In this document: positions 4,901-62,204 of the stretch, piece after piece
Numbering within the stretch: position 1 is the stretch's first letter
How the letters are laid out: each line of letters opens with the position of its first letter
Assembly (NCBI RefSeq): GCF_022458985.1
Contig: NC_061770.1
Location: 37,677,599 to 37,741,598, forward strand
Direction of reading: 5' to 3'
Origin: Mugil cephalus
Lineage: Eukaryota > Chordata > Actinopteri > Mugiliformes > Mugilidae
Length of the DNA: 64,000 nucleotides
The notes under the pieces: model-generated
Seen by the model: only the letters and a program-made list of their open reading frames with translations
Told to the model about the DNA's origin: nothing
Databases searched by the model: none
Made by a program: the position numbers and the translations under genes

Positions 4901-6639
4901 ATGAAGAACCTTACCCTGATCACAGTTTTACTTCTCAGCAGCTTTAGTGAGTATAGGCTGTAAACAAATCCACCAGAATCTAAATTTTAAAAAGATGTTG
5001 TCCTTTTAATAGACTGAAAGCTACTGTTGTTTTCTGTTTGTTTCAGGTTGGATCTCTATCTTGGGTTCTGAGTCTACGATTGTAGAAGTCCAGGCTGGTG
5101 AACAAATCACACTGACATGCTCCAAAATGTCCGACTCTATAACATTCTGGTTCAGACTGATCAACAGAAGCAATGTTAGCTGCATCTCCGTTATGTACAG
5201 TGCTGACAGCAGTATTAAGTACTGCGACGGATTTGAAAAGAGTGCATTTGAAATGAGTTCCAACACTTCTACTGTGTTTCTCAAAATCAATCCAGTGGAT
5301 TTATCCGACTCTGGACTGTATTTCTGTGGATTTTACACAAATGGGCTGCCACTTTTCAACATGATACAGCTTAATGTTAAAGGTAAGTCAATTCTTCTAA
5401 AAATCAAATATTACATACTTTCATGTTTCTTGATACTTACAGAATATATTTTCTCTTTCTTAAAAGGCAACAATGAATTTGATGATCACATTGACAGCGA
5501 GTCTCAAAGTAAGATGCCTTTCTATGCACCGATCCAAAGCAGGATCTCAGAAAACCACATGAAACATTCAGTCTAATTTCATTGTCAGTTACAGATATGT
5601 GTCATGAAAACACAAAGCTGATGGTTCCAACTCTGGGTGGTCTGAGTGTTTTCCTCCTAATGATCATCATTGGTCTGGTAGTTAAAATAAAGAAACTTCA
5701 GAAAGGTACGTTTTGAAAGCTACTGTCTTTTCTGAGTCAATATTTGACGTCCATATTTTAGCATGATGGCTCAGCAGGTAGAGCAGGTTATCCACAAACT
5801 GCAGGGTTAGCGGTTCGATCGCCCAAGTGTGCCATATGCCGAAGTGTCCTTGAGCAAGACACTGAACCCCCAGTTGCTCGCAGTGCAACTGGTACTGGTG
5901 TGTGAATGTGTGTGTCCTTGTGTGAGCGAATGGGCAAATGTGTCTCTGACTGTAAAAGCGCTCTGAGTACTTTTGAGTACGTAGAAAAGCGCTATATAAA
6001 AGCAAGATCATTTACCATTTAATAAACAGTCTTATCTGCATAAAGATATGCAGACAAGACTGTCAGGATATATCAGATCATCTGCACAAAACTTCAATAC
6101 TTGAACATGCACTGCTAACTTTTTTGTCCTCTAAAAAGTGACAAACGTGATTCTTAATTCAAATCTTACAAAGGTTATTAGCAATTCTGTACCATACTTC
6201 TTAAAAGCTAATAAAGCAGAATTCATAATGTCTAAATTAGCAGAGGGTGAGATATCCCAACGTTTTTCCTTCGGTCATGTTCCAAAAACTACTAAATTGT
6301 ACTACTATAGAACTACAGGGCACTTAATGAGGGCATTTAATGATAAAATGTTAGTGTAGGGATTTAGAGTGATTGTTTAATGTCTATCTAAGCAGATATT
6401 TTCTCTCCATATTCAGCTCACAATGAAAAACATCTACAACAAAGCGAGGTACAGTTTCAATATTTACTTTTGTATAAATTATTTTACTTAGCATCATAAA
6501 CTGTGAGACGCGAGATGACTATTATTGTTCTTTACAGACTCTGGGCTCTGAAGACTTGAACTATGCCACAGTGACATTTGCTCGGGAGGCAAGAAGAAGA
6601 GAGATGGAGTTAAATGTTGTGTACGCTGCCACCAGATAG
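4901..6639 (+). CDS. R1: single V-Ig inhibitory-type receptor with extra Cys pair, six exons
   Basis: Exons: 4901-4946, 5047-5382, 5467-5508, 5595-5705, 6417-6448, 6538-6639. All junctions are GT-AG and stay in frame, giving 222 residues. Residues 1-16 are a Leu-rich signal peptide. The V domain has Cys40, Trp50, D-S-G-L-Y-F-C with Cys109, and an extra pair Cys61/Cys75 that most other copies lack. Exon 3 is a short acidic stalk (about 129-141) not seen in R2-R10. The membrane segment is about 150-171, without charged residues and followed by K-I-K-K. The tail has a consensus ITIM, L-N-Y-A-T-V (Tyr198), and a C-terminal V-V-Y-A-A-T-R (Tyr218). ITIM tails recruit SHP-type phosphatases in known receptor families, so an inhibitory role at the cell surface is inferred. 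NITR-like or CD300-like membership is possible; no J motif is present. Confidence 0.85.
5760..6020 (+). mobile_element. tRNA-derived SINE in an intron of R1
   Basis: The element lies between the membrane exon and the next exon of R1. Its head has a tRNA-like A box (ATGGCTCAGCAGGTAGAGC) and a B box (GGTTCGATC) at about 5812-5820. The body has the teleost-typical GTGTCCTTGAGCAAGACACT stretch, a TGTGTGAATGTGTGTG run, and ends in AAAGCGCTATATAAAAGC followed by CATTTACCATTT. I recognise this type from many fish genomes but do not assign a named family. It leaves both neighbouring splice sites intact. Confidence 0.75.
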
Positions 6640-9600: not shown

Positions 9601-9699
9601 AGATTTAACTGCCTAAAACAGCAACTATGAAGTGAAGTGGAAGTCTGTTTTAAAGATTTAACTTAATTATAAGGGATAATAAAAATGTATTTTTGATGC
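6640..9699. other. Gene-poor interval between R1 and the gypsy fossil
   Basis: AT-rich DNA with short open frames only. Two stretches, about 7140-7350 and 7790-8110, are further copies of the dispersed repeat also seen at 3420-3660 (shared CCTCAGTTAACC and TGATCCAAAACA-like pieces). Nothing in the remainder matched a protein, RNA gene or element with clear ends. No receptor promoter block is seen here. Confidence 0.4.
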
Positions 9700-12600
9700 C
9701 ATTTACTCAGGTGATCCCAACACATGTCGCCAATTCCTCACGCAGTGCTGATCAACTTTTAAGGCACAACCTGGTCCTCCGCTGAACCTTTTTAATGCCC
9801 TCTTTGAACAAGATTCCCCTCTCACTGTGTCCTTCGATGCCTTCACCGGGGAGCTTAAACGGGCGTATGATGACCCCATGCGGGGCCAGCAAGCCGGTCT
9901 GCAGCTCTCCAGGATCCACCAAGGGCGGCTTTCAGTCCAGGAGTTCCGAAGCCGTTTTCAAAATGCTGCGGTGGAATCAGGTTGGAACGAGGCAGCACTC
10001 ATCACCGCTTTCCTGAACGAACTCGACCATGACGTCGGGGGGGAGATTGCGCTCCAGAAGGAATACACCACATTAGACGAGGCCATAAAAGCAGCCATCC
10101 AAGTGACTGACCAACTATCCTTGTGGCAGGCCTAGTCCGCTGCTCCCTCCACTTGCCACTCTAATCAGCAAATATCCCCCGGTCCCGAGGTGCTGAGACC
10201 TCGCGAGGATCACCGCTGGATACCCATGAGTCTCGAGCCTGAGCCCATGCAGGTGGATGGCGTCCATCTGTCACCCGAGGAGAAAGCCCGCTGTATTAGG
10301 GCCCGGTCCTGCCTGTACTGTGGCCAAACTGGTCACTTTATTGCCACTTGCCCCGTTCATCCAGCAAAAGGTCAGGCTCGTCAGTAGCGGGAGAACTACT
10401 GTCGAGCCGTGTGGTCAGTCCTTCTCCCCCAGACCGTCCTCTGCTTGATGCTGCCCTCCTGTGGCAAGGTCAGTCCCTTCCACTCACCGCACTACTGGAC
10501 TCAGGGGCTGATGTTAGCCTTATTGATAGTGCTGTTTGCCAGCAGCTGGACATCAAGACCGAGGCCCTTGTGGTTCCACTGAAAACCAAGGCCCTCAATG
10601 GCATGCTACTGGCCACCATCAAACACAAGACAGCTCCTGTACAAGTTCAGCTATCCAGAAATCACCAAGAGGCCATCTGCTTTCACATCATCGACTCTCC
10701 TCATGTTCCCCTGATCCTGGGGTGCCCCTGGTTAAGGCTCCATAACCCCCACTTAGATTGGACCACAGGAAGGGTTCACTCTTGGAGTTCATACTGCCAC
10801 TCTCACTGTCTCCGCTCAGCTCTAACCTCCTCCTCTGACCCCTCGCCAGTAGCTGAACCGATAGATCTATCCTCCGTTCCTGAAGAGTATCATGACCTGG
10901 CTCCAGTCTTCAGTAAAAAACGGGCTCTTTCTCTTCTTCCCCACCGGCCCTATGATTGCACTATTGAACTTTTTCCTGGAGCTCCACTTCCCAGTAGCAA
11001 GCTCTATAACTTTTCCCGTCCTGAGCAGCAAGTCATGGAGAAATATTTACAGGAGTCTCTGGCAGCTGGGATCATCCGGCCGTCATCCTCCCCGGTACGT
11101 GCGGGATTTTCCTTTGTGGGGAAGAAAGACGGCACACTGAGACCGTGTATTGACTTTAGAGGACTTAACAGCATCATTGTCAAGTACAAGTATCCCCTGC
11201 CTCTCATTGAATCTGCTTTTGTCCCTCTCCAAGGCGCCTCTGCTTCACCACCCTGGACTTGCGTAACGCTTACCATCTGGTGCGCATAAGAGAGGGTGAC
11301 GTATGGAAGACTGCTTTCAACACCCCATTAGGTCATTTTGAATACTTAGTTATGCCTTTTGGTCTGACCAATGCCCCAGCAGTCTTCCAGGCTATGGTTA
11401 ATGATGTGCTTTGTGACATACTACTTTTACTTTGATGATATCCTGATTTATTCTTGCTCTCTCCAAGAACACCAGGTTCATGTCCGCACCGTTCTGCAGC
11501 GCCTTCTGAGAACAAACTGTTCTTCAAAGCCAAGAAATGTAAGTTTGATGCCACCTCTACTTCCTTTCTTGGCTTCATCATTTCAGAAGGAGAGCTCAGA
11601 ATGGATGCAGCTAAGGTCTCAGCAGTCGCTAACTGGCCGACTCCCACCACCCACAAGCAGCTCCAACGTTTCAATGGCTTTGCCAACTTCTGTCGCAGGT
11701 TTGTGAAGAACTACAGCAGCAGAGCTGCCCCCCTTACGGCACTCACTTTCCTGTCCGTTCCCTTCCGTTGGACTCCTGAGGCGGATGCAGCCTTCTCTGA
11801 GCTCAAGCACCTGTTCACTTCCTCTCCCGTTCTCATCCATCCTGACCGGTCCCTGCAGTTCGTGGTGGAGGTGGATGCGTCTGACACTGGGGTAGGTGCC
11901 GTCCTTTCCCAACGCTCTCCCAAAGACAAGCGACATCCTTGTGCCTTTTTCTCACACAAATGTGACCCCCCCGAGAGGAACTATGACGTTGGAAATCGGG
12001 AACTGCTGGCTGTGGTGTTGACATTGGAGGAGTGGCAACACTGGCTGGAGGGCGCAGAACATCCTATCATCATTTTGACCGACCATAAAAATCTCTCATA
12101 TATCCAGACGGCCAAGCGTCTGAACGCTCATCAAGCCAGGTGGGCTCCGTTTTCCTTGGTAGGTTCAATTTCACAATCACTTACCGTCCAGGTTCCAGGA
12201 CCGTGAAGCCGGATGCCCTATCCTGCCAGTTCTCATCCGAAGAAGCTTCCGCAAAACCGGAACCCATCGTGCATCCTTCCTGGATCATTGCAGCTCTCAC
12301 CTGGGGTATAGAGGCCAAGGTCTGTCAGGTGCAGTCCATACAGCCCGACCCAGGTAACGGACCTCCTAACTGTCTCTTCGTTCCAGACTCAATCCGTTCC
12401 CAGGTCCTGCAGTGGGCCCACTCCTCCCACCTTACCTGTCACCCTGGTTTCCATCGTACCATCTCCTTCCTCAAACGGCGCTTCTGGTGGCCGACCATGG
12501 ATGCCGACACCCGGTCATTTGTGGCTGCCTGATCCGTCTGCACCCGAAGCAAGACCACCACCAAGCCAAGATCTGGTCTGCTCCGTCCTCTACCCATTCC

Positions 12601-13510
12601 CAGCCGTCCATGGTCCCACATTGCCCTCGACTTTGTAACCGGTCTTCCCCCTTCTGGAGGTAATACGGTTGTCCTCACCATCATTGATCGTTTCTCTAAG
12701 GCTGCACATTTCATTGACCTGCCCAAACTTCCCTCTGCTTGTGAAACTGCTGATTTACTGGTACAGCATGTCTTTCATATCCATGGTCTTCCCTCAGACA
12801 TTGTTTCCAACAGAGGCCCACAATTTACCTCCCAGGTTTGGAGAGCCTTCTGTACGTCCATAGGAGCAATGGCCAGCCTGTCTTCAGGATACCATCCGCA
12901 GTCCAATGGCCAGACGGAGCGGGCCAATCAGGAGATGGAGGCTGCTCTTCGCTGCATTACCTCAGTGGAGCCACAATCCTGGAGCACTCAGCTGCCCAGC
13001 GTGGAGTACGCCCATAATACACTCCCCAACGCGTCCTCTGGTATGTCTCCATTCCTCTGTTCTCTCGCTTCGGGCTCGATTACAGATGGGAGACTGCTGC
13101 ACTGGATTGGATCCCTCAGCTGCTGCTAATTAACCCTTGGCATTTAAGTTCCAGAGCCACAGTCAGACAGCGCTGGATTATAGACACCGCTACCAGTTAG
13201 TCACGTCGCCAGCTCTTTGCCGATCTCCGTCTACATCATAGTAGTAATCCCAAACTTCCGAATACTAATCTGGTGTTTCTTTTGTTCCGTAGCTTCCACT
13301 ACTCCTGCATGTGATCTTTCCTGCCCGCCTGCCTGCCTTCACCTACCCGCACCAGTCTCCCAGCCATTATCGACTCCTGCCTGCCTGCCTGCCTTCACCT
13401 ACCCGCGCCAGTCTCCCAGCCATTAGCGGCCCAGTATAATAAAAGCCTTTTTTCCAAAACCTCTGATTCTGCCTCCTTCCCTGCTTTAGAGTCCACCAAC
13501 CCGGTCCCGA
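9700..13510 (+). mobile_element. Ty3/gypsy LTR retrotransposon fossil (gag-pol)
   Basis: A degenerate Ty3/gypsy element on the + strand. The parts recognised, in order, are: gag (from about 9700) ending in a CCHC zinc knuckle ([14 protein letters not shown], about 10306-10347); aspartic protease (L-L-D-S-G-A-D-V-S, about 10490); reverse transcriptase ([13 protein letters not shown] about 11120, Y-F-D-D-I-L-I-Y-S about 11430); RNase H ([12 protein letters not shown] about 11870); integrase (H-P-G-F-H zinc-binding type region about 12440, [10 protein letters not shown] about 12890). A GC-rich 3' tail with a short direct repeat and an AATAAA near 13438 looks like LTR or 3' untranslated sequence. 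No 5' LTR was found, so no LTR pair is available for dating. The element is broken in several places and cannot be active. It is much more GC-rich than its surroundings, which marks it as an insertion. Confidence 0.9.
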
Positions 13511-13917: not shown

Positions 13918-13925
13918 CCTGCTAG

Positions 13926-14644: not shown

Positions 14645-14652
14645 CCTGGTAG

Positions 14653-15635: not shown

Positions 15636-16726
15636 ATGGTGAACTTAACCTTGACACCAGTGTTACTCTGCACCTTCAGTAAGTACATATATTACATTTA
15701 TCACTATAAATGCTAGCTGATGTTCTAAACTTGAATCTACCAAAACTGATACTTAGAAACATTTCATGAATAATCTTTTGTTTTAGGTTGGATCTCTGTC
15801 TCAGTCTCTGAGTTTTACACAGTGGAGGTTCAGCCTGGTGAAGAAGTCACACTGCTGTGCTCCAACTTCAGCAGTATACCCACAAATATATTCTGGTTCA
15901 AACTGGTCAATGGACCCTACATCACCCGCATCTCAGCTATGTTGAGCTCTGATCAAAATGCTTTCTTCTACGATGGATTTGACACTGGCAAATTTAATAT
16001 GACATCCAACACCACTACTCTCTTTCTGAAGATCAAACCTGTGGATTTAACTGACTCTGGACTGTACTTCTGTGGATCTAACCAAGGGCAATACTCAGTA
16101 ACTGTCTCAGTTGCAGTTATAGCTACAAATTTAAGAGTTCAAGGTAAGACAGCTCTGAAGTACTTTTTTTATATCAATATGTACCCCATTTCAGACATGA
16201 TGTGTACAACTACTGATTTCAACCCACAACAGGTTGAATATTTTATATACTCTTCTATCGTTCATCTTTCTTGTAGAAGTGCTAAGTGATGGGTTTACAA
16301 ATGTGATGACTGTGATCCTGGCCGGTACAATGGTTTTCCCTCTAATGGTCATATGTCTGGTCGTCAAAATCCAAACATGTCATACAGGTATATATTTTTA
16401 TTTAAAATGCACATGCAAACATTTGTAGCTATTAACTGATGGCGTTTTGGTTTCTGTCATTTAGGTGAAAATGAGGAAGTGATTCCACAACATACTGAGG
16501 TAATGACATGTTTCCCTTTGATTAACATGGACTAATCAATATATTGCACGATTTAATTAATTTGACAAGAAGTTTGTGAGATTAATGATTATTTTATTTT
16601 CAGAATACGGCCAGTTCTCTGAACGATGTAGATGAGGGGCTGCATTCATCAGCTATAAGGAGGAGGAGGAGGCCAGCTTCAGAGAGACTAGTGGAATCTT
16701 ATGTTATTTATGCTACCAGAGGATAG
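15636..16726 (+). CDS. R2: V-Ig receptor with the ITIM tyrosine lost, five exons
   Basis: Exons: 15636-15678, 15787-16143, 16277-16387, 16465-16499, 16604-16726; 222 residues, all GT-AG and in frame. The start is the ATG in GCACAATGG, shared by the array. The V domain keeps Cys39, the Trp in I-F-W-F-K, and D-S-G-L-Y-F-C; its last strand is two residues longer than in other copies (V-S-V-A-V-I-A-T-N). The membrane segment (M-T-V-I-L-A-G-T-M-V-F-P-L) has no charged residue. The odd part is the tail: the ITIM L-N-Y is replaced by L-N-D (Asp190), followed by a divergent stretch with five Arg in a row. The C terminus keeps Y-V-I-Y-A-T-R-G. With no consensus ITIM it may be non-signalling, a decoy, or use another tail motif. 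Confidence 0.85.
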
Positions 16727-18946: not shown

Positions 18947-20002
18947 ATGGTGAACCTTACCTTGATACCAGTGTTACTCTGCACCTTCAGTAAGTACATA
19001 TATTACATTTTATCACTAGAACTGCTAGCCGACGTTCTAAACTTTAATCCACTGGAATTGATACTTAGAAACATTTCATGAATAATCTTTTGTTTCAGGT
19101 TGGATTTCTGTCTCAGTCTCTGAGTTTTACACAGTGGAGGTTCAGCCTGGTGAAGAAGTCACACTGCTGTGCTCCAACTTTAGCAGTTTTCCCGCAAATA
19201 TATTCTGGTTCAAACTGGTCAATGGAAACAATATCACCCGCATCACATACATGACGAGCTCTGATGGAAGTGCTTCGGTCTGTGATGGATTTCAAGACGG
19301 CAGATTTAATATGTCATCCAACACCACTACTCTTTTTCTGAACATCAAACCTGTGAATTTATCTGACTCTGGGCTGTACCTCTGTGGATTTCACCACGGA
19401 CAAGACGCAGTAACTGTCTCAATAATGGCTACAAATTTAAGGGTCCAAGGTAAGATTACTCTGAGGTTCTTTTCTATATCAACAGTACCTTTTTTCTTGT
19501 AGTATCTAAGGACTGAGAGGTTGAATATTTTAAAATGGAGTTTTATCATTTATCTTTATTGTAGAAGTGCTAAATGTAGAGTTTACAAATGTGACCACTG
19601 TGATCCTGGCCGGTGTAACCGTTCTCCTTCTAATGGTCATCATATGTCTGGTCGTCAAAACCCGGACATTTCATACAGGTATTTATACGTTTTTATTTTA
19701 AATGCAAATGCTCTAAGTTATTAACTGATGGATTTTCCGTTTCTGTCATTTAGCTCAACACGAGGAAGTGAATCCTCAGCACACTGAGGTAATGACATTT
19801 TTTCCTTTCGATTAATATCATGGATTTAATTCTTTTAAATAGTGATGTATAAATTCAGTGACTGCAATTTTATTTTCAGAACGTGGGCTCTGATTCTCTC
19901 AACTACGCAGCTGTGAGTTTCCGTCCCAAAGCAAAGATCAGCAGCAGGCCTGCAGCAGAGAGAGAACTGGAGACACATGTAGTGTACGCTGCCACCAGAT
20001 AG
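18947..20002 (+). CDS. R3: V-Ig receptor with consensus ITIM, five exons
   Basis: Exons: 18947-18989, 19099-19449, 19565-19678, 19754-19788, 19880-20002; 221 residues. Exon phases (1,1,1,0) are those of the whole array. Residues 1-15 or so form the signal peptide (M-V-N-L-T-L-I-P-V-L-L-C-T-F-S). The V domain runs about 27-131 with Cys39, Trp51 and Cys110; it has one unpaired extra Cys76 in S-V-C-D-G-F, the position paired in R1. Sequons N-I-T, N-M-S and N-T-T suggest glycosylation. The membrane segment is about 142-162. The tail holds L-N-Y-A-A-V (Tyr190, ITIM) and V-V-Y-A-A-T-R (Tyr217). A CCACCCCACC box lies 89 bases before the ATG. AATAAA signals follow at about 20084 and 20109. Function as an inhibitory surface receptor is inferred from the tail. 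Confidence 0.9.
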
Positions 20003-21260: not shown

Positions 21261-21309
21261 ACATCTATCATTACCTGGATGTTGAACTAGGCCTCATGTA
21301 ACAGCTGGT

Positions 21310-23255: not shown

Positions 23256-24324
23256 ATGGTGAACTTTACCTTGATACCAGTGTTACTCTGCACCTTCAGT
23301 AAGTACAGCCATTACATTTTATCACTATAACTGCTAGCTGGTGTTCTATTTTTTAATATGCCGGAGCTCATACGTTTATTTGTCATGAATAATCTTTTGT
23401 TTCAGGTTGGATCTCTGTCTCAGTCTCTGAGTTTTACACAGTGGAAGTTCAGCCTGGTGAAGAAGTCACACTGCTGTGCTCCAACTTTACCAACTTCCTC
23501 ACTCACACACACTGGTTAAAACTCGGCAATGATAACAATATCCGCAGCATCTCATCTATGTCCAGTGCTGATCAAAAAGCTTTGTTTTATGATGGATTTG
23601 ACACTGGCAGATTTAATATGACATCCAACACCACTACTCTCTTTCTGAACATCAAACCTGTGGATTCATCTGACTCTGGGCTGTACCTCTGTGGATTTAA
23701 CCATGGAAACGACTCAGTAACTGTCTCAATAATGGCTACAAATTTAAGGGTTCAAGGTAAGATTGATATGAAGTTGTTTTTTTATATTAATATGTCCCCC
23801 TTTTCATATAAGTACTAACTCCAACCCACAGTGGGTTGAATACTTTATATTCCGTTTTATTATTTATCTTTCTCGTAGAAGTGTCAAGTAATGAGTTTAC
23901 CGATGTGACGACTGTGATCCTGGCCGGTGTAACGGTTTTCCTTCTAATGATCATCATCAGTCTGGCTGTCAAAATCAGGACACTTTATACAGGTATTTAT
24001 GTGTGTTCTTTCAAATGCATGTTCTTAGTTAGTAATTGATGAATTTTCTGTTTCTGTCATTTAGGTAAAAATGAGGAAGTGAACCTGCAACCCACTGAGG
24101 TAATGATATTCTAAGCTTTAAGACTGACTGATATATATTGCATGGTTTAATTTATTTAAAAGGTGATGTGTGAGATTAGTAACTGTAATTTTTATTTTCA
24201 GAACATGGGCTCTGATTCTCTCAACTACGCAGCTCTGAGTTTCTGTCCTAAAGCAAAAAACAGCAGAAGGCCTGCAGCAGAGAGAGAACTGGAACAACAT
24301 GTAGTGTACGCTGCCTCAAGATAG
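23256..24324 (+). CDS. R4: V-Ig receptor with consensus ITIM, altered front sheet
   Basis: Exons: 23256-23298, 23406-23756, 23879-23992, 24065-24099, 24202-24324; 221 residues, intact. The V domain keeps both Ig Cys and D-S-G-L-Y-L-C, but the region around the core Trp differs from the siblings: T-H-T-H-W-L-K-L replaces N-I-F-W-F-K-L, and N-N-I-R-S-I has lost the N-I-T sequon. The tail has L-N-Y-A-A-L (ITIM) and V-V-Y-A-A-S-R; a Cys replaces Arg after S-F. Exon 4 begins G-K-N-E-E-V rather than A-Q-H-E-E-V, like R2. A CCACCCCACC box is 89 bases before the ATG. The polyadenylation signal is probably AATAAA near 24430. Confidence 0.9.
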
Positions 24325-31669: not shown

Positions 31670-31703
<34 letters not shown>

Positions 31704-36695: not shown

Positions 36696-37773
36696 ATGGC
36701 GAACTTTACCTTGATACCAGCCTTACTCTGCACCTTCAGTAAGTACAGCCATTACATTTTTCACTATAACTGCTAGTTGATGTTCTAAATTGTAATATAC
36801 CAGATTTGGCACTTAGAAACATTTCATGAATAAACTTTTGTTTCAGGTTGGATCTCTGTCTCAGTCTCTGAGTTTTACACAGTGGAGGTTGAGCTTGGTG
36901 AAGGAGCCACACTGCTGTGCTCCAACTTTAGCAGTTCACCCGTAAATATACTCTGGTTCAAACTGTCAATGGAGTCGATATCACCCGCATTTCTTCTATA
37001 TCCATCTCTGGAAATATTCGTTTTATGATGGATTTGACACTGGCAGATTTAATATGACATCCAACACCACCACTCTCTTTCTGAACATCAAACCTGTGGA
37101 TTCATCTGACTCTGGGCTGTACCTCTGTGGATTTTACAATGGAATCGGCTCAATAACTGTCTCACGGATGGCTGCAAATTTAAAGGTTCAAGGTAAGATT
37201 ACTATAAGTACTTCTGTATCAATAAGACCCTTTTTCACACATGATGTATATAAGTACTGACTTCAGCACACAAGAGGTTGAACATTTCATCCACAGTTTT
37301 ATCGTTAATCTTTCTAGTAGACGTGCCAACTGATGAGTTTACAAATGTGACGACTGTGATCCTGGCTGGTGTAACAGTTTTCCTTCTTATGATCATCATA
37401 TGTCTGGTCGTCAAAATCCGGACACTTCATACAGGTATTTATATGTTTTTATTTAAAATCTACATGCATGTTTTTAATTTTAGCTACTAACTGATGGATT
37501 TTCTGTTTCTGTTATTTAGCTCAATATGAGGAAGTGAATCCACAACACACTGAGGTAATGACATTTTTACCTCAGATTAAGATGTTGCATGATTTCATTC
37601 TTTTAATAAGTGATGTGTGAGATCAGTGACTGTAATTATTTTATTTTCAGAACGTGGGCTCTGATTCTCTCAACTACGCAGCTGTAAGTTTCCATCCCAA
37701 AGCAAAGAGCAGCAGAAGGCCTGCAGCAGAGAGAGAACTGGAAACACATGTAGTGTACACTGCCACAAGATAG
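36696..37773 (+). pseudogene. R6: near-identical copy of R5 with two 1-base losses in the V exon
   Basis: Exons by alignment: 36696-36738, 36847-37192, 37321-37434, 37520-37554, 37651-37773. The V exon is 346 bases against 348 in R5: one G is lost in AAACTGTCAATGG (R5 AAACTGGTCAATGG, near 36965) and one T in AAATATTCG (R5 AAATATTTCG, near 37017). Together they leave the frame open only downstream of 37054, so the gene as given is frameshifted. The following intron has two more single-base losses against R5 in a row of equal bases. All other exons are intact, with L-N-Y-A-A-V and V-V-Y-T-A-T-R in the tail. Because all four losses shorten runs of one base and the sequence is otherwise nearly identical to R5, a consensus error is as likely as a real pseudogene. 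The second residue is Ala (ATGGCG), unique in the array. Confidence 0.8.
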
Positions 37774-39540: not shown

Positions 39541-39872
39541 CTCAGCCTCAGTGAGTAATAAACTGTTGCACAGAACTAAGTGCATTGCTGATTACACTAA
39601 TACGAAAGCATTTCTCAGGATTTTGTCATTTTGTCAACCCAAGGATCATCAGGCATGTGATGTTTGTTTCAGGTTGGATCTCTGTCTCACTACTTTGAGG
39701 AGGTTCAGTCTGGTGAAGAAGTCACACTGCTGTGCTCCAACTTTAGTACTGTTCCCTCACAGGTTTACTGGTTCAGAGTTGTCAAGAGATCCAAGCGCGG
39801 CTGTGTCTGCTTCATGTTTGACTCTGTTCACTCCGCTTCATACTCTGATGGATTTAAAAATCGTCCTTTTGA
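39541..39872 (+). pseudogene. P6: truncated companion receptor
   Basis: Only CTCAGCCTCAGTGAG of the signal exon remains (39541-39555). The V exon starts at 39673; its beginning is altered against P5 (CACTACTTTGAGG versus CACTTTCTGAGG), which shifts the frame. The first Ig Cys is kept (L-L-C-S-N-F). Homology stops in the middle of the V exon after G-F-K-N at about 39863, where the sequence jumps to the GAGTTGCTTACCTCTTTGAC block found in other units well downstream of the companion. A deletion joining these two points explains the truncation. Confidence 0.75.
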
Positions 39873-40329
39873 GTTGCTTACCTCTTTGACCAATGGGTAT
39901 ATATCAGATGTCTTTACTGTCTTTCTCTACCGGATCATCTTTATATTCTGAGTGTTAGTTATTCTTGCTTGTTTAGAAGAACTTCTTTACAACTACATTT
40001 TATCTGACGATACATAAAGCACATTGTTTTGTCATAACCTTAGAATACGCCAGTGCAATACCACATATGACCACATATCTAATATAACCATGCATTGTCA
40101 TGCACGGGGGCGCTATTTCACTACATTGAAGAAACTGTTTGGGAAGTCATGGGGAGGAGTTATAAAACTCAGACCCAACTAACAAAATAATGATTAGTTA
40201 GGTACATCTGCTAAATTTCCACTTACTGGATGAGTTTTTTGTTTTGTTTTGTTTTTCACACCATTCTGTGGAAAAAAAACACTCGAGGCTTTGGGAAAAT
40301 CCCACAATAGGAGCAGTTTCAGAAACAAA
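39873..40329. other. Junction block and start block of the R7 unit
   Basis: Matches 59420-59720 of the R10 unit in order (TATATATCAGATG-like, GAGTGTTAGTT-like, GGGGGCGCTATTTCACTAC). It holds no gene. Confidence 0.5.
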
Positions 40330-41258: not shown

Positions 41259-41437
41259 ATGGTGAACTTTACATTGATACTAGTGTTAATCTGCACCTTC
41301 AGTAAGTACATATCTTAAACTTATTACTATATCTGCTAGCTGATGTTCTATACTATTCTATTCTATACTATTCTATATGAACTGTTAAACATTTTTAAAC
41401 ATTTTTTATGCACTATGATATTATATTATACACATAT

Positions 41438-41471
<34 letters not shown>

Positions 41472-41510
41472 CATATATCATAATATATATGTATATATAT
41501 ATATATATAT

Positions 41511-41549
<39 letters not shown>

Positions 41550-42626
41550 CTGTAATTGTATTGCATTGTCCTGAGCCATATGCAATGAAATTTTGTTCTG
41601 TACACACCCTGTGCATACAAAATGACAATAAAGTTAGTCTAGGTCCACTTTAATATACCAGAATTGATATTTACAAACATTTCATGAATAAACTTTTGTT
41701 TCAGGTTGGATTTCTGTCTCAGTCTCTGAGTTTTACACAGTGGAGGTTCAGCCTGGTGAAGAAGTCACACTGCTGTGCTCCAACTTCACCAGTTTGCCCA
41801 TGAGGATATTCTGGTTCAAACTGGTCAATGGACCCAATATCACCCGCATTTCATCTATGACGACCTCTGATGGAAATGCTTCGGTCAGTGAAGGATTTCA
41901 AGATGGCAGATTTAATATGACATCCAACACCACCACTCTCTTTCTGAACATCAAACCTGTGGATTTATCAGACTCTGGGCTGTATCTATGTGGATTTTAC
42001 CACGTAAACGACTCAGTAAATGTCTCAATAATGGCTACAAATTTAAAGGTTCAAGGTAAGATTAGTATGAAGTACTTCTCTATCAATAAGGACCCTTTTT
42101 CACACATGATGCATATAAGTACTGACTTCAGCACACAAGAGTTTGAATACTTTATCCACAGTTTAATCGTTTCTCTTTCTAGAAGTCAAAGCTGATGAGT
42201 TGACAAATGTGACGACTGTGATCCTGGCCGGTGTAACAGTTTTCCTTCTTATAATCATCATCTGTCTGGTCGTCAAAATCTGGACACTTCACACAGGTAT
42301 TTATGTGTTTTTATTTAAAATCTACGTGCATGTTTTTAGTTATTAACCGATGGATTTTCTGTTTCTGTCATTAAGCTCAACTTGAGGAAGTGAATCCACA
42401 ACACACTGAGGTAATGACATTTTTACCTCAGATTAATATGTTGCATGATTTCATTATTTTAATAAACGATGTGTGAGATCAGTGACTGTAATTTTATTTT
42501 CAGAACGTGGGCTCTGATTCTCTCAACTACACAGCTCTGAGTTTCCGTCCCAAAGCAAAGATCAGCAGAAGGCCTGCAGCAGAGAGAGAACTGGAACCAC
42601 ATGTAGTGTACGCTGCCACAAGATAG
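41259..42626 (+). CDS. R7: V-Ig receptor with consensus ITIM
   Basis: Exons: 41259-41301, 41705-42055, 42183-42296, 42376-42410, 42504-42626; 221 residues, intact. The signal exon differs by one drift change (V-L-I-C-T-F). In the V domain S-V-S-E-G-F stands where R3 has S-V-C-D-G-F. The tail is L-N-Y-T-A-L (ITIM) and V-V-Y-A-A-T-R. The acceptor of exon 4 reads ATTAAG in place of ATTTAG, still a valid AG. Intron 1 carries a LINE 3' piece and a long AT tract (see 41350-41640). The polyadenylation signal is AATAAA near 42743. Its membrane exon starts E-V-K-A-D-E-L, closest to R10 (E-V-I-A-D-Q-F). Confidence 0.9.
41350..41640 (+). mobile_element. LINE 3'-end fragment in intron 1 of R7
   Basis: Starts in ATACTATTCTATTCTATACT and ends in AATGACAATAAAGTTAGTCT, the kind of 3' tail carried by 5'-truncated fish LINEs. 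The same insert sits at the same place in R8, R9 and R10 but not in R1-R6. In R7 its centre is replaced by an AT microsatellite. Confidence 0.65.
41424..41546. repeat. AT dinucleotide microsatellite
   Basis: About 120 bases of nearly pure AT/TA with a few breaks. It replaces the ACATGCCATCCTTACATC region that R8-R10 keep in the same LINE fragment. Confidence 0.95.
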
Positions 42627-43309: not shown

Positions 43310-43653
43310 ATGAGGAACTTTATCTTGGTGACACTTACTTCTCAGCCTCAGTGAGTAATAGACTGCTGCACAGAACCAAGTGCATTGCTGACTCCATTGA
43401 TACGAAAGCATTACTCAGGATTTTGTCGTTTTATCAACCAAAGGAACATCAGGAGTGTGATGTTTGTTTCAGGTTGGATCTCTGTTTCATTTTCTGAGGA
43501 GGTTCAGTCTGGTGAAGAAGTCATACTGCTGTTCTCCAACTTTAGTACTGTTCCCTAACAGGTTTACTGGTTCAGAGTAGTCAAGAGATCCGAGCTCCGC
43601 TGTGTCGCCTTCATGTTTGACTCTGTTCACTCCGCTTCCTACAGTGATGGATT

Positions 43654-43878
43654 CATCTCATCTCATCTTCTATATCGCTTAATCCTCGCTAGGGTTGTGG
43701 GGGTTGCTGGACCTCATCCCAGCTGTCATCGCTCGAAGGCAGGTTACACCCTGGACAGGTCTCTGATCTAATGCTGGGCTAACACATAGACAAACAACCA
43801 TTACCACTTACACGCACATCGAGGGTCAATTTAGAGTCACCGATTAGCCTAACGAGCACGTCTTCAGAGGTGGGACGA
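43654..43878 (+). mobile_element. LINE-tail-like insertion with 11-bp target duplication
   Basis: AGTGATGGATT stands on both sides (43643-43653 and 43879-43889). The insert begins CATCTCATCTCATCTTCTAT and contains ATCCCAGCTGTCATCG, TACACCCTGGACAGGTC and CAATTTAGAGTCACC, a well-known vertebrate LINE 3' end also found in fish. It lacks any coding part. The intact duplication shows retroposition into the V exon after it was already copied. Confidence 0.8.
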
Positions 43879-43920
43879 AGTGATGGATTTAAAAATGGAA
43901 AATTTGACGTTAGTTCCAAC

Positions 43921-45476
43921 CACTGTTCCCTCTAAGCTGCGCGCTTGCGCAATCGCGCACTGCTTGCACATTCTCAGCGCACAAGAAAATCTATGCAGCG
44001 CATAAAATAAAATTCAACATAAACGTATTAATTAATATCTAATATTAGACCTAATCTAATCTAATTAATTAGACCAATAATATTGTGTTCTGTACCATTT
44101 TGCAACGTAACAGTGAGTGACAGGTGTCCATTCAATGGTACGATACAGTTCACTTACGCTACGCAGCCAATCATAGCCTTGACCAGACCTGGGCATTTTA
44201 CGCATACGGCCCTTTGGGCATTCCCGTCCGGCCCGCGGTGCGTCAGTCATGAGCACAGATGAACTGTGCATGCAATACGACTGTGTTGCTTATATTTTGA
44301 GCCATTATGTGTTATTTACGTCATGGCACTGTTAGTTCGTCAACAACAAAAAAAAGAGAAAAACAGCTTCTTGCATCTATTAACCCTCAAAAACCTGAAC
44401 GGATCGCTGGCATCTGTCAAAGCGGCCGATTTTGAATTACCGTAAGTCACAGTGGTTTGCGCTATTAATAATATTCATTGTGAGTGAACACTGGTTAGTT
44501 GTGCTTTTGCCTGGAAGACCTTCGTGACATCTCAAGGGTATAACTAACTTTGTTTTTACCAACAAATTCCTCCAAACAAGTCTCTCTTACTGAGGCTCCG
44601 CGATCGTTGCTCTTCAACCTGCAGCCGACAGCAGCGGTGCGTCATCATTAACGTAATGGCAGCATTTTTTTCTAGAAAGCGCAACTTGAATATTATCCAT
44701 TGGGGATTACGGTAATTCAAATACAGCAAGCTTCTCTTTGTGGGCAGACGGACATTCAGGTCTTAAAGGGTTAAATATTTATTGAGATTTATTGAGATAC
44801 AGAAAATAATTCATGTAGCTACATGGTCCCTACTTGGTCCACTGACGTTTTCGAAAGAGGACAAAGTTTCCAACATTCCAGTGCGTTTTATCCAAAACTA
44901 CAGATCGATTGTGTTTCATTTTCCTCTTCAACCTACAGCAAAACTCATAAATTTAAATAAATATTTACAGAATTCTTATGTTTCTGATTACCAGTAGCAG
45001 CTTATCAACATATATAATTTACTGCTTTTTACAATGGGAGAAAATTAATATTGAGCAGAATAACGTTCAAGTTATCGTTTGGTTTGCCCCTTCAACACAG
45101 TTCAGATTTTTCATGCGGCCCCCTGTAGAAATTAATTGCCCAGCCCTGGCCTTGACAGTGCTTGCCTATGTGCCCTCTGACCTGCCCATACGCGCCGTGC
45201 AGGCTAGCTAGCCAACAACAACCCTTACCATGGCAAAATGAACGGGCAGCGACACATCCACTCACCAAGCTAAAGTAAAAAAGAAATGCAGTTCTTTTAA
45301 GATGGAATGGCTATCGGAAAATGTGCAAATAGAAGAACAAGCAGTGAAACTGGGTGAGATTTTTTCTTTTTCGAGTGAGAAAGGTCTACTCTGTAAATGT
45401 TGCTCACAGTGGTCCTCGGTGTGCTCAGGGAGCTTGTGTGTATGCTCAGACACATGAAAAATTAGAGGGAACATTG
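43921..45476. mobile_element. Outer hAT element, 8-bp target duplication, hosts a second hAT
   Basis: Left end CACTGTTCCCTCTAA and reverse-complemented right end CAATGTTCCCTCTAA differ by one base. GTTCCAAC flanks both sides (43913-43920 and 45477-45484). The interior is a GCGC-rich head, as in common fish hAT elements. No transposase frame was recognised. Without the nested element it is about 590 bases long. Confidence 0.9.
44184..45148. mobile_element. Inner hAT element nested in the outer hAT
   Basis: Left end CAGACCTGGGCA and reverse-complemented right end CAGGGCTGGGCAATTA are imperfect inverted repeats. GCCTTGAC flanks both sides (44176-44183 and 45149-45156), a perfect 8-bp duplication inside the outer element. 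The interior has a TTCCCGTCCGGCCCGCGG piece near 44220. No complete transposase is present. Confidence 0.9.
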
Positions 45477-45588
45477 GTTCCAACGTGTCCACTGTCGTTC
45501 ACGAAATCAAATCACTAAATTCATCTGACTCTGGCCTGTATTTCTGTGGCTTTTACATATTCAGCATGAATCCTGTTAATATGTAACT

Positions 45589-48289: not shown

Positions 48290-49595
48290 ATGGTGAACTT
48301 TATCTTGATACCAGCCTTACTCTGTACCTTCAGTAAGTACATATATTACATTTATCACTATAACTGCTAGTTGATGTTCTATACTATTCTATTCTATACT
48401 ATTCTATATGAACTGTTAAACATTTTTAAACATTTTTTATGCACTATGATACATGCCATCCTTACATCTACATCGCTGCTGCACTTCATATTGTATTTTT
48501 ATCTTATTTATCTGTAATTTTATTGCATTGTCCTGAGCCGTATGCATTGAAATTTTGTTCTGTATACACCCTGTGCATACAAAATGACAATTAAGTTAGT
48601 CTAAGTCTACTTTAATATACCAGAATTGATATTTACAAACATTTCATGAATGATCTCTTGTTTCAGGTTGGATCTCTGTCTCAGTCTCTGAGTTTTACAC
48701 AGTGGAGGTTCAGCCTGGTGATGAAGTCACACTGCTGTGCTCAAACTTAACCAGCGTTCCCTTGAGGATATTCTGGTTCAAACTGGTCAATGGACCCAAT
48801 ATCACCCGCATCTCGTCTATGCTGACATCTGATCAAAATGCTTTATTTCATGAGGGATTTGGCCCTGGCAGATTTCATATGACATCCAACACCACTACTC
48901 TCTTTCTGAACATTAAACTTGTGGATTCATCTGACTCTGGGCTGTACTTCTGTGGACTTGAAGAACAAGGCTCAGTAAAAGTCTCACTGATGGCTACAAA
49001 TTTAAAGGTTGAAGGTAAGATTACTATGAAGTACTTCTACATCAATAAGGACCCTTTTTCACACATGATGTACGTATATAAGTACTGACTAGAGCACACA
49101 AGAGGTAGCATATTTTATGCACAGTTTTATTATTTATCTTTCTTGTAGAAGTGCCAACTGATGGGTTTACAAATGTCACGACTGTGATCCTGGCAGGTGT
49201 AACAGTTTTCCTTCTTATAATTATCATATGTCTGGTCGTCAAAATACGGACACTTCATACAGGTATTTATGTGTTTTTATTTAAAATCTACATGCATGTT
49301 TATAGTTATTAACTGATGGATTTTCTGTTTCGGTCATTTAGCTCAACACGAGGAAGTGAATCCACAACAGACTGAGGTAATGACATTTTTACCTCAGATT
49401 AAGATGTTGCATGATTTCATTCTTTTAATAAGCGTTGTGTGAGATCAGTGACTGTAATTATTTTATTTTCAGAACGTGGGCTCTGATTCTCTCAACTACG
49501 CAGCTGTGAGTTTCCGTCCCAAAGCAAAGAGCAGCAGAAGGCCTGCAGCAGAGAGAGAACTAGAACCACATGTAGTGTACGCTGCCACAAGATAG
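48290..49595 (+). CDS. R8: V-Ig receptor with consensus ITIM
   Basis: Exons: 48290-48332, 48667-49014, 49149-49262, 49342-49376, 49473-49595; 220 residues, intact. The V domain differs from siblings in A-L-F-H-E-G-F-G-P-G-R-F-H-M (R9 has T-S-F-Y-D-G-F-G-T-G-R-F-N-M), which removes the N-M-T sequon; N-T-T remains. The loop before the last strand is short: C-G-L-E-E-Q-G-S. Exon 2 ends in K-V-E where most copies have K-V-Q. Tail motifs are L-N-Y-A-A-V and V-V-Y-A-A-T-R. The LINE fragment lies in intron 1 at 48380-48602. The polyadenylation signal AATAAA is near 49724. Confidence 0.9.
48380..48602 (+). mobile_element. LINE 3'-end fragment in intron 1 of R8
   Basis: Fullest copy of the insert shared by R7-R10, from ATACTATTCTATTCTATACT to AAAATGACAATTAAGTTAGT. 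It carries ATACATGCCATCCTTACATC, which R7 has lost to its AT microsatellite. Confidence 0.65.
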
Positions 49596-51362: not shown

Positions 51363-51812
51363 AAAAATCTCAGCCTCAGTGAGTAATAAACTGTTGCACA
51401 GAACCAAGTGCATTGCTGACTACACTAATACGAAAGCATTACTCAGGATTTTGTCATTTTATCAACCCAAGGATCATCAGGCATGTGATGTTTGTTTCAG
51501 GTTGTATCTCTGTCTCACTTTCTGAGGAGGTTCAGTCTGATGAAGAAGTCACACTGCTGTGCTCCAACTTTAGTACTGTTCCCTCACAGGTTTACTGGTT
51601 CAGAGTCGCCAAGAGGTCCGAGCTCCGCTGTGTCTGCTTCATGTTTGACTCTGTTCACTCTGCTTCATACAGCGATGGATTTAAAAACGGAAAATTTGCG
51701 TTACTTCCAACGTGTCCACTGTCTTTTACAAAATCCAATCGCTGTATTCATCTGACTCTGGACTATATTTCTGTGGCTTTTACATATTCAGCATGAATCC
51801 TGTTGATATGTA
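51363..51812 (+). pseudogene. P8: broken companion receptor
   Basis: The signal exon is reduced to ATCTCAGCCTCAGTGAG. The V exon starts at 51501 (C-I-S-V-S-L-S-E-E-V-Q-S) and stays open through F-K-N-G-K-F, keeping the first Ig Cys, then shifts frame: the S-N-V-S-T-V-F stretch is damaged. The GGACTATATTTCTGTGGC motif for the second Cys is present in another frame. Membrane and tail exons are absent; the sequence passes into the AACTGTCTGTCCAGTGTTTT block. Confidence 0.75.
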
Positions 51813-54478: not shown

Positions 54479-55785
54479 ATGGTGAACTTTACCTTGATAC
54501 CAGTGTTACTCTGCACCTTCAGTAAGTACATATATTACATTTATCACTGTAACTGCTAGCAGATGTTTATACTATTCTATTCTATACTATTCTATATGCA
54601 CTGTTAAACATTTTTAAACATTTGTTTTCGCACTATGATACATGCCATCCTTACATCTACATCGCTGCTGCACTTCATATTGTATTTTTATCTTATTTAT
54701 CTGTAATTGTATTGCATTGTCCTGAGCCATATGCAATGAAATTTCGTTCTGTATACACCCTGTGCATACACAATGACAATACAGTTAGTCTAAGTCTACT
54801 TTAACATAACGGAATTGATATTTACAAACATTTCATGAATAATCTTTTGTTTCAGGTTGGATTTCTGTCTCAGTCTCTGAGTTTTACACATTGGAGGTTC
54901 AGCCTGGTGAAGAAGTCACACTGCTGTGCTCCAACTTTACCAGCGCTCCCTTGAGAATATTCTGGTTCAAACTGGTCAATGGAGCCAATATCACCCGCAT
55001 CTCATCTATGTTAACATCTGATCAAAATACTTCATTTTATGATGGATTTGGCACTGGCAGATTTAATATGACATCAAACTCAACTACTCTCTTTCTGAAC
55101 ATCAAGCCTGTGGATTCATTTGACTCTGGGCTGTACTTCTGTGGACTTAACCAAGAACAAGGCTCAGTAAAAGTCTCACTGATGGCTACAAATTTAAAGG
55201 TTCCAGGTAAGATTACTATGAAGTACTTCTATGTCAATAAGGACCCTTTTTCACACAATATGCATATAAGGACTGACTTCAGCACACAAGAGGTAGAAAA
55301 TTTTATCCACAGTTTTATCATTTATCTTTTTCGTAGAAGTGCCAACTGATGAGTTCATAAGTATGACGACTGTGATCCTGGCCGGTGTAACAGTTTTCCT
55401 TCTTATAATCATCATCTGTCTGGTCGTCAAAATCCGGAAACTTCATACAGGTATTTATGTGTTTTTATTTAAAATCTATATGCAAATGTTTTTAGTTATC
55501 AACTGATGGATTTTGTGTTTCTGTCATTTAGCTCAACACGAGGAAGTGAATCCACAACACACTGAGGTAATGACATTTTTACCTCAGATTAATATCTTGC
55601 ATGATTTAATTCTTTTAATAAGCGATGTGTGAGATCAGTGACTGTAATTATTTTATTTTCAGAACGTGGCCTCTGATTCTCTCAACTACGCAGCTGTGAG
55701 TTTCCGTCCCAAAGCAAAGAGCAGCAGAAGGCCTGCAGCAGAGAGAGAACTGGAACCACATGTAGCGTACGCTGCCACAAGATAG
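54479..55785 (+). CDS. R9: V-Ig receptor with consensus ITIM
   Basis: Exons: 54479-54521, 54856-55206, 55337-55450, 55532-55566, 55663-55785; 221 residues, intact. The start context is CACGATGG in place of CACAATGG. V-domain differences: T-L-E-V (shared only with R10), S-A-P-L-R-I-F-W, G-A-N-I-T-R, and D-S-F-D-S-G-L-Y-F-C with Phe in place of Ser. The exon ends K-V-P. The membrane exon has F-I-S-M-T-T-V and K-I-R-K-L. The tail has N-V-A-S-D-S-L-N-Y-A-A-V and H-V-A-Y-A-A-T-R, the only copy with Ala before the last Tyr. The polyadenylation signal AATAAA is near 55899. Confidence 0.9.
54568..54792 (+). mobile_element. LINE 3'-end fragment in intron 1 of R9
   Basis: Same insert and position as in R8, ending CACAATGACAATACAGTTAG. 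R9 and R10 share ACACAATGACAATACAG where R7 and R8 have ACAAAATGACAAT. Confidence 0.65.
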
Positions 55786-56344: not shown

Positions 56345-56409
56345 TGAGGAAGCAGGAGACCCATATCAGAGAGAGAAGTGGACCCCCATGCTCTTTATAG
56401 TGTCAACTG
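56345..56409 (+). pseudogene. P9: tail-exon remnant of a companion receptor
   Basis: GAGGAAGCAGGAGACCCATA and following bases match the end of P5 (32805-32870) and read A-L-Y-S-V-N then TGA. No signal, V or membrane exon is present in this unit. A deletion between the 3' flank and the last companion exon explains this. Confidence 0.7.
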
Positions 56410-57174: not shown

Positions 57175-58985
57175 TACGATAAATAAGATAGAATAAAATA
57201 AGATAAGATGTGCCTTCATTCATCCCACAATGGGGAAATACTCATTGTTAACAGCAGTAAGACATTCAGGGAAGGAACGACCTGCGGTGCTGCTCCTTTG
57301 CACAATGTGAGTGAAGAAGCCTGGCACTGATGGAGCTTTCCAGGGCTCTGACAGTCTCATACAGGGGATGGGAGGTGTTTTTCATGGCTGGTGACAGCTT
57401 CACCAATACCCTTCTGTCCCCCACCACCTCCACAGGCTCAAAACTGCAGCACAGTACCAAGCAGCTTTCTTCACTAGCTTGTTCAGACTTTTTCCCTTTG
57501 CTGCCATGATGCCGTGCTCCAGCAGACCACACCATAAAAGATGGCCGACGCAACCACAGAGTCATAGAAGGTCCTCAGGAGGGCGCCCTGCACTCCAAGG
57601 GACCTCAGTCTCCACAGCAGGTGGAGTCTGCTTTGGCCCTTCCTTTATAGTGCTTGAGTGTTGTCAATCTAGTCTAGATTCTTGTTTAGGTGAACACCCT
57701 AGTGCCTGTAAGAGTCCACTGTCTGTTCCCTGGATGTTCACTGGTGGCGGGGAAGTGGCTTTGCTCTGGCGGAAGTCCACAACCAGCACTTCGGTTTTTC
57801 CCGCATTAATCCGGAGGTGGTTCCACTGGCACCAAGCCACAAAGTTCTGGTTCAGTTCTCGGTACTCCCTTTCATCTCCATTGTTGTTGATGAGACCAAC
57901 GATGCCTGAGTCGTCCAAGAACTTCTGTAGGTGACAGTTGGTTGTGTGGTGGGTGAAGTCGGCAGTGTAGATGGTGAAGAGGAGATGGGCCAGGAGTGTC
58001 CCCTGTGCTGCAGATCACTGTCAAACACATAGTCCTTTGTCCTCACAAACTGTGGGTCTGTTGGGCAGGAAGTCCAGGAGCCAGACTGACAGCTGTTGGT
58101 GCACCCATGCATGGTTCAGCTTGTCCCTCAGGAGTTCTGGCTGAATGGTGTTAAAGGCACTGGAGAAATCATAGAACATGATTCTCACAGTGCTTCCAGA
58201 CTTCTCCAGGTGGGACAAGGATCTCTGCATGAGGAAGATGACAGAGTCTTCAACCCCGATGCCAGGCTGGTAGGCGAATTGCAATGGGTCAGCAGTTGTT
58301 GGATGACCAACCTCTTTAGGGCCTTTGCAAGGTGGGCTGTTAGAGCCACTGGTCGGTAGTCGTTGAAGTCGCTGGGACGAAATGACATGGGCACTGGTAC
58401 CATGCAGGATGACTTCCACAGCAGTGGTACCTTCTGCAACCTCAGGCTCATGTTGAAGAGGTGCTTCACAATCCCACACAGTTGGCTGGCGCAGGATTTG
58501 AGGAGCCTAGAGCTGATGCCATCTGGATCCGTTGCCTTCTTGACCTTTAGCCTGGCCAGTTCTCTTTCTACCTGGGCTAAGGAGAGCACCATGCTGGGTG
58601 GAGGGCGGTGGGTGTGCTGGGGTGTTGTAGAGGAGCTGTAGGGAGGGGGGCGGGGGTGGGAGGGGCAGTGGGTGCACATGGAGGTTGCGGAGGAGGGGCT
58701 GCGATGGTTGAGGACGTGGCAGCCAAGGTTCCAGTCGGGGGAACCTGCACCCGGTCTGGTTGGGTGAGGGGAGGGGTGACTGGTTGGTTGAATCTGTTGG
58801 AGAACCTGTTCAGGTCGTTCACCCACTCCTGGTCTCTGGCCAGCTCAGGTCTAGAATTATTGTGTCCTGAGATGGTTTTCAGACTCCTCCAGACATCGTT
58901 CTGCTGCAGCTGGTCTTCCATCCTCCTCCTGTAGCTGCCTTTTCTTGCCTTTATGACACAGACCCTGCACCTAGCCACTGGAAAA
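57175..58985 (-). mobile_element. Rex1/CR1-like LINE, 5'-truncated and decayed
   Basis: On the minus strand the order is: a basic region (K-A-R-K-G-S-Y-R-R-R near 58940), reverse transcriptase start (K-A-T-D-P-D-G-I-S about 58520; D-F-N-D-Y-R-P-V-A-L about 58350), D-F-S-S-A-F-N-T-I-Q-P (about 58150), a damaged catalytic region (D-D-S-G-I-V-G about 57915), W-C-Q-W-N-H-L-R-I-N (about 57830), and a C-terminal C-A-K-E-Q-H-R-R-S-F-L-P (about 57275). The 3' end is an A/T-rich TCTTATCTTATTTTATTC-type tail at 57175-57215. Several frame breaks are present and the endonuclease part is missing. The family name rests on recall of fish Rex1 proteins. Confidence 0.8.
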
Positions 58986-60904: not shown

Positions 60905-62204
60905 ATGGTGAACTTTACCTTGATACCAGTGTTACTCTGCACCTTCAGTAAGTACAGCCATTACATTTATCACTATAACTGCTAGCTGATGTTCTATACT
61001 ATTCTATTCTATACTATTCTATATGAACTGTTAAACATTTTTAAATATTTTTTTCGCACTATGATACATGCCATCCTTACATCTACATCGCTGCTGCACT
61101 TAACATTGTATTTTTATCTTATTTATCTGTAATTGTATTGCATTGTTCTGAGCCGTATGCAATGAAATTTCGTTCTGTATACACCCTGTGCATACACAAT
61201 GACAATACAGTTAGTCTAAGTCTACTTTAATATACCAGAATTTATATTTACAAACATTTCATGAATAATCTTTGGTTTCAGGTTGGATCTCTGTCTCAGT
61301 CTCTGAGTTTTACACATTGGAGGTTCAGCCTGGTGAAGAAGTCACACTGCTGTGCTCCAACTTTAGCAGCGTTCCTATGAGGATATTCTGGTTAAAACTG
61401 GTCAATGGACCCAATATCACCCGCATATCGTCTATGCTCACATCTGATCAAAATACTTCATTTTATGATGGATTTGGCCCTGGCAGATTTAATATGACAT
61501 CCAACACCACCACTCTCTTTCTGAACATTAAACCTGTGGATTTATCTGACTCTGGGCTGTACCTCTGCGGATTTTACACAGAACAAGGCTTAGTAACAGT
61601 CTCACTGATGGCTGCAAATTTAAAGGTTCAAGGTAAGATTACTATGAAGTACTTCTATATCAATAAGGACCCTTTTTCACACATGATGCATATAAGTACT
61701 GACTTCAGCACACAAGAGGTTGTATATTTTATGCACAGTTTAATCGTTTCTCTTTCTAGAAGTCATAGCTGATCAGTTTATAAGTGTGATAACTGTGATC
61801 CTGGCCGGTGTAACAGTTTTCCTTCTTATAATCATCATCTGTCTGGTCGTCAAAATCCGGACACTTCATACAGGTATTTATGTGTTTTTATGTCAAATCT
61901 ACATGCAAATGTTTTAGTTATTAACTGATGGATTTTCTGTTTCTGTCATTTAGCTCAACACGGGGAAGTGAATCCACAACACACTGAGGTAATGACATTT
62001 TTACCTCAGATTAATATGTTGCATGATTTATTTATTTTAATAAACAATGTGTGAGATCAGTGACTGTAATTTTATTTTCAGAACGTGGGCTCTGATTCTC
62101 TCAACTACGCAGCTGTGAGTTTCCGTCCCAAAGCAAAGAGCAGCAGAAGGCCTGCAGCAGAGAGAGAACTGGAACCACATGTAGTGTACGCTGCCACAAG
62201 ATAG
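60905..62204 (+). CDS. R10: V-Ig receptor with consensus ITIM
   Basis: Exons: 60905-60947, 61282-61632, 61760-61873, 61954-61988, 62082-62204; 221 residues, intact. V-domain marks: T-L-E-V as in R9, S-S-V-P-M-R-I-F-W-L-K (Leu for Phe after Trp), G-P-N-I-T-R, and C-G-F-Y-T-E-Q-G-L. The membrane exon starts E-V-I-A-D-Q-F-I-S-V-I. Exon 4 reads A-Q-H-G-E-V. The tail has L-N-Y-A-A-V and V-V-Y-A-A-T-R. The acceptor of exon 2 is GGTTTCAG. The LINE fragment lies at 60997-61222. The polyadenylation signal AATAAA is near 62321. Confidence 0.9.
60997..61222 (+). mobile_element. LINE 3'-end fragment in intron 1 of R10
   Basis: Same insert as in R7-R9, with the R9-like ending ACACAATGACAATACAG. Confidence 0.65.

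Follow-up and report, generated by a model that had tools for sequence, protein, structure and literature searches.

A single-V inhibitory receptor array beside the NITR genes of Mugil cephalus, probably an I-less arm of the NITR supercluster

The ten genes R1-R10 found in the window, the 64,000-nucleotide stretch of Mugil cephalus DNA that was analysed (C1:37,677,599-37,741,598), are probably single-V inhibitory receptors of the novel immune-type receptor (NITR) kind, making up an I-less arm of the percomorph NITR supercluster that expanded by tandem duplication with gene birth and death. They are placed in a known kind of receptor rather than in a new class because they adjoin NITR genes, a sea bass relative carries the name NITR13, catfish NITR10 and NITR11 are the best matches among solved structures and the definition of an NITR admits a single V domain. 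What is new here is the size of the set and its contiguity with the NITRs in mullet, its linkage to NITRs in 34 of the 35 species sampled and the disagreement with its database names. The original prediction had been of a possibly undescribed, lineage-specific receptor set fitting no known group cleanly. The set is indeed little described, and it is unlike NILT or CD300/pIgR receptors, but that it fits no named group was an overstatement, as it is NITR-like. No description of a J-poor one-V set was recognised in the titles and abstract openings of open-licence papers, which is no proof of absence. If the array were annotated as NITR-linked, fish immunologists would have an inhibitory repertoire, varied in the germline, that they could test.

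Exon searches and inspection of splice sites gave a five-exon model with GT-AG introns for each of the ten genes, all on the forward strand. As had been predicted, nine are intact (R1, R2, R3, R4, R5, R7, R8, R9 and R10); the tenth, R6, thought to be nearly intact, is a frameshifted copy. The exons of R2-R10 measure 43, 346-357, 111-114, 35 and 123 nt and those of R1 46, 336, 111, 32 and 102 nt, with phases of 1, 1, 1 and 0 after exons 1-4 in the nine intact genes. Each of the nine encodes a signal-like leader, one V domain and one membrane segment, in which no charged residue was seen when the nine were read by eye, and with the Pfam V-set model (cut-off 26) the four V exons that were tested reached 38.3-43.5 bits. 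A consensus ITIM is present in eight of the nine and absent from R2, and no I domain was found in the window genes, both in agreement with the original prediction of one V domain, an uncharged membrane segment and an ITIM-bearing tail, with no second Ig domain in R1-R10. The predicted C-terminal tyrosine motif was also found, as V(V/A)Y(A/S)A(T/S)R in eight of the intact genes and as the variant end YVIYATRG in R2.

R1 (window positions 4901-6639) has a V domain of type B and the ITIM LNYATV, while the other nine genes are of V type A. R2 (15636-16726) has lost the ITIM in its last exon. The ITIM is LNYAAV in R3 (18947-20002), R5 (30050-31125), R8 (48290-49595), R9 (54479-55785) and R10 (60905-62204), LNYAAL in R4 (23256-24324) and LNYTAL in R7 (41259-42626). 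R6 (36696-37773), which is nearest to R5, has a V exon of 346 nt in which the frame is lost. The models of R2 and R3 are identical, letter for letter, to the Mugil cephalus database proteins P0013 and P0002 respectively; no exact match was found for the other eight models in the database, which is clustered at 90% identity. The AlphaFold model of R3, made with an input alignment of 63 chosen relatives, has a mean pLDDT of 73 and shows one confident V domain, a single long helix across the membrane segment and a tail of low confidence. Short possible stalk exons, left out of the models, lie after the V exon and before the membrane exon in R1, at position 5467, and in a type C gene (L029).

In a whole-genome search all R3 matches at E <1e-6 were on C1, at 37,516,682-37,795,508 and on the forward strand, and a search with the tail only placed 41 of its 42 matches (E up to 10) in C1:37,519,114-37,796,315, the remaining one being a weak match (E 9.2) elsewhere. 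The single-V array occupies C1:37,516,682-37,796,315, about 280 kb, and extends far past both sides of the window. By hand count it contains at least about 43 V-domain loci, of which R6 and some others are broken, together with at least about nine shorter fragments, both counts being lower bounds since the genome search scored best candidates only. A genome search with the mullet protein P0121, among whose relatives are sea bass 'Novel immune-type receptor 19' and '21', gave NITR or NITR-like matches throughout C1:37,265,456-37,514,687, about 250 kb, and the gap between the end of this run and the start of the single-V array on the same chromosome is about 2 kb. Synteny of the flanks had been set as a check, and it places the array directly beside the NITR run; the mullet NITR supercluster thereby grows to about 530 kb, with a large one-V arm at its end. 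Within the run, V-set matches at 37.31 and 37.46 Mb have J-like ends, with V and I in one exon where read further, and the final part has diverged further, V and I being split between two exons where read. L040 and L041 (C1:37,487,926-37,501,660) are divergent two-exon V/I genes of NITR-like type that lie between the one-exon NITRs and the single-V array. Menin is also on C1, 2.4 Mb from the array; in medaka the larger NITR cluster, on chromosome 18, is described as linked to MEN1 (PMC2442602).

The two kinds of gene are linked in other fish as well. Where both kinds of gene were listed for a species, the family and NITRs were on one contig in 34 of 35 cases, two of these on scaffolds of <0.45 Mb, the calls resting on equal size of the listed contigs and the sample comprising 120 of 750 family matches, 120 of 1948 NITR matches and all 96 type C matches. 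The exception is Lates calcarifer, whose listed NITR is on a 29-kb scaffold. Elsewhere in the mullet genome, a second cluster lies at C5:5.29-5.78 Mb (L042, L043). Its NITR-I-like domains are about 35-49% identical to P0121, V and I occupy separate exons where read, and it may correspond to the second NITR cluster of medaka and zebrafish. Weak relatives (E 5e-6 to 1e-3) were also seen at C2:23.03-23.04 Mb, where the V domain of L044 starts GWISV.

An NITR is defined in PMC2442602 as a type I protein with an ectodomain of one V domain or of V and I domains. The one-V type I architecture of the window genes falls within this, the absence of an I domain being allowed. They also have the uncharged membrane segment and the tail with an ITIM or ITIM-like sequence by which inhibitory forms are recognised, R2 being without the ITIM, and they have the location, belonging to an array that starts about 2 kb after NITR-like genes in mullet. 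The J sequence is less simple. According to PMC2442602, one-V NITRs 'may' carry a J or J-like sequence and TxLx(V/L/I) counts as J-like. Because six of the nine intact window genes carry this motif, as do 145 of 203 relatives, the original statement that a J-like motif is lacking was too strong; what remains of it is the absence of FGxG, which was found in none of 203 family V domains against 10 of 120 NITR V domains. A looser form of FGxG occurs in 10 of 203 against 86 of 120, and the usual J form of NITR V domains, represented by one pattern, in 9 of 117 against 105 of 120. Annotated as NITR-linked, the array would also allow V domains that have the usual J motif to be compared, inside one genome, with V domains that lack it.

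The family V domain is closer to NITR V domains than to the other V sets sampled by Foldseek, by profile search of the PDB and by HMM, whereas with VIA-align the V fold ties with antibodies. The catfish NITR10 and NITR11 structures (2qjd, 2qte, 2qhl, 2qqq, 3b5t and 3bdb), at 27-29% identity, are the best matches in the PDB both in Foldseek, where they take ranks 1, 2, 4, 6, 7, 11, 19 and 32 among the best 50, and in single-domain profile scores, where six NITR10/11 chains reach 55.5-58.3 bits on one domain; of the PDB constructs shown that rank higher, no single domain exceeds 32.4 bits with the family profile. The membrane segments of catfish NITR10/11 are grouped with those of activating NITRs (PMC2442602), while the window genes look inhibitory. 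Median scores with the family V HMM were 48.2 bits for NITR V (n=120), 33.5 for IgH (n=10), 34.4 for TCR (n=3) and 17.9 for IgL (n=17), a comparison with few V sets other than NITR, and a lone V domain from C2 scored 41.9 bits, near the NITR values. An inner pair of Cys residues 10-18 positions apart, perhaps a second disulphide, is seen in 134 of 203 family V domains; R1 has it (C61 and C75) and the window type A genes do not.

V-domain phylogeny was tried as an arbiter and did not serve as one. In a tree of 93 rows and 115 columns, built from 22 of 120 listed family proteins, 15 of 120 listed NITR proteins and mullet rows, the family forms its own supported clade (99/97 and 96/94), which has no supported neighbour and contains the sea bass protein D2WL98. 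AU tests, carried out after the long rows C2_L044, TCR_L019a and TIM_L017 had been dropped, rejected none of three joins of the family (to NITR V, p-AU 0.61; to NITR I, 0.46; to Ig V, 0.36). Firm nesting of R1-R10 inside a named family, which the original prediction had set as its refutation, was not obtained, nor was its opposite: a clade of their own is supported, and a join to NITR V is neither shown nor rejected.

A supported clade whose join is not resolved would also be expected of a separate V-set family of spiny-rayed fish with its own V origin, merely neighbouring the NITRs, in which the likeness of the tails came from exon exchange or from convergence on the ITIM; such receptors would still be inhibitory. 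The J form unlike that of NITR V, the lack of an I domain and the conserved C-terminus of the family's own (VVYAATR in 72 of the 120 relatives listed, as against VYSSVKQ or VYSSVRQ at the end of NITRs) all speak for this reading, which we nevertheless consider unlikely given that the array is contiguous with NITRs and linked to them across species, that NITR10/11 are the best solved matches and NITR V the best-scoring V set, and that the exon phases are those of an NITR. Similarly unlikely is a reading in which a spiny-rayed-fish family of distinct V origin expanded within the NITR locus and bears, instead of the NITR end VYSSVKQ, a strongly conserved docking motif of its own at the C-terminus, E-x-x-V-V-Y-A-A-T-R-COOH. 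Were this true, fish would hold, next to the J-bearing NITRs, another V repertoire that is poor in J.

Gene structure and tail also speak for the assignment to the NITRs. The mullet NITR P0121 has the phases 1, 1, 1 and 0 and a 35-nt fourth exon, as in R2-R10. Classical percomorph NITRs (P0121 and sea bass NITR19 and NITR21) come from the same locus and have an ITIM with a basic stretch after it and a VY motif at the C-terminus, but they have V and I in one exon and a J of FxxGT type, which is missing from the one-V window genes. Cytoplasmic profiles of the family and of NITRs align in hhalign at 89% (E 2.2e-6), where the best result from 20 column shuffles was 18% (E 0.0013). The compared tails, 62 of 120 and 79 of 120, had been picked because their ITIM-like core is intact, a choice that favours a match. 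The ITIM of medaka NITR12 is given as LNYAAL (PMC2442602). Among 63 aligned relatives eight positions are invariant, all in the V exon, and in the last ten residues E, V, Y, A, T and R are at least 90% conserved; this conservation suggests that the C-terminal tyrosine is in use.

Sea bass 'Novel immune-type receptor 13' (UniProt D2WL98, Dicentrarchus labrax) is 58% identical over its full length, with one V domain, an ITIM and the end NAVYAATR, NITR13 being a database name. In the matches listed the family is mostly called uncharacterized, with a few entries named CD8-beta-like or butyrophilin-like 2. The listed matches come from fish that we take to be acanthomorphs, Centroberyx included; they are the best 120 of 750 in a search by shared exact 5-residue words, by which older relatives could be missed. 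V type C was tried as a route to more distant fish and abandoned, as all 96 matches came from records naming fish that are presumably percomorphs. One of them, P0317, also bears a ferret label.

CD300 and pIgR V domains carry an extra Cys beside the core Trp. None of the nine window proteins has this Cys, and of 203 relatives 6 were flagged for it. DICP genes are linked to the MHC. The locus here adjoins NITR genes, and it is very unlikely that R1-R10 are DICPs, the other teleost ITIM-bearing Ig family reported in NK-like cells, a possibility weighed by locus; both dicp and nitr genes have been reported from NK-like cells of zebrafish (PMC5340972). The NILTs of salmonids and cyprinids, as described in PMC3022915, resemble the window genes in having V domain(s), of which there may be one, an ITIM, a phase-0 ITIM exon and similar exon sizes, and zebrafish NILT1 also has a 35-nt Cyt1 exon, a size common to P0121 and R2-R10. 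By the same account, however, NILT V domains have an extra CX3C, CX6C or CX7C pair, a pair not seen among the cysteines of the window V domains and picked up by its pattern in 1 of 117 relatives, and NILT genes have a separate connecting-peptide exon; none is needed in R2-R10, and the candidate in R1 is unused. With the Cys hallmarks setting them apart, there is hardly any likelihood that R1-R10 are NILT, CD300 or pIgR-like receptors.

Four V types, A-D, were sorted by eye and with tblastn. Type A comprises R2-R10 and at least five downstream copies, type B R1 and upstream copies, and type C lies upstream; type D is decayed in the window and has open frames downstream. Decayed type D pieces are interleaved with the genes, following R5 (32040-32503, with a piece of membrane exon), R6 (39700-39903), R7 (43499-43920), R8 (51503-51804) and R10 (63051-63310), and there is a further type D fragment at 45470-45577 and a V-exon fragment nearest to type B at 3156-3338, all on the forward strand. 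Since five of the nine window genes of type A are followed by such pieces, duplication of an A+D pair, with D lost repeatedly, is a possible history. The newest pair is R5 and R6, whose exons are 97.7% alike. Exons of R3 and R7 are more alike (0.899) than their introns (0.745) and a similar excess is seen in several older pairs, although not in R7 and R8 (0.888 for exons, 0.899 for introns) or R2 and R5 (0.810 and 0.814). These likenesses of older pairs, together with the gene models, led us to reject a mainly dead array: that it is kept by recent duplication only, as the broken R6, the R2 without ITIM and the decayed type D pieces of the window might imply, is extremely improbable with nine of ten genes intact and the family kept in many fish.

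NITR inhibitory function is reported as confirmed in vitro (PMC2442602), and nitr genes mark NK-like cells in zebrafish (PMC5340972). As NITR-type receptors, the R1-R10 proteins would sit on lymphoid (NK-like) cells, where their germline-varied V loops would bind a cell-surface ligand. Kinases would then phosphorylate the ITIM (LNYAAV), and perhaps also the C-terminal ITIM-like VVYAAT, and SHP-type phosphatases would be recruited and the activation of the NK-like cells damped. Judging from its sequence, R2, with its ITIM lost, is probably a weakened receptor or a decoy. Variation is greatest in the V loops. In 12 type A V exons, eight from the window and four from downstream, dN/dS was 3.1 in the FG loop (bootstrap 1.4-12.5) and 0.55 in the framework, with 0.45 in the BC loop, 0.78 in C'-D and 0.93 for all loops together, values that are exploratory as the loop limits were fixed after the alignment had been viewed. 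Uniform positive selection was not seen in these 12 exons, the FG loop alone being above 1.

Mobile-element remains are also present in the window. At 9752-13126 on the forward strand are those of a Ty3-type retrotransposon, where matches to gag, protease, RNase H and integrase lie in different frames, and at 58024-58506 on the reverse strand is a weak reverse-transcriptase match, below the Pfam cut-off, that is likely a LINE fragment.
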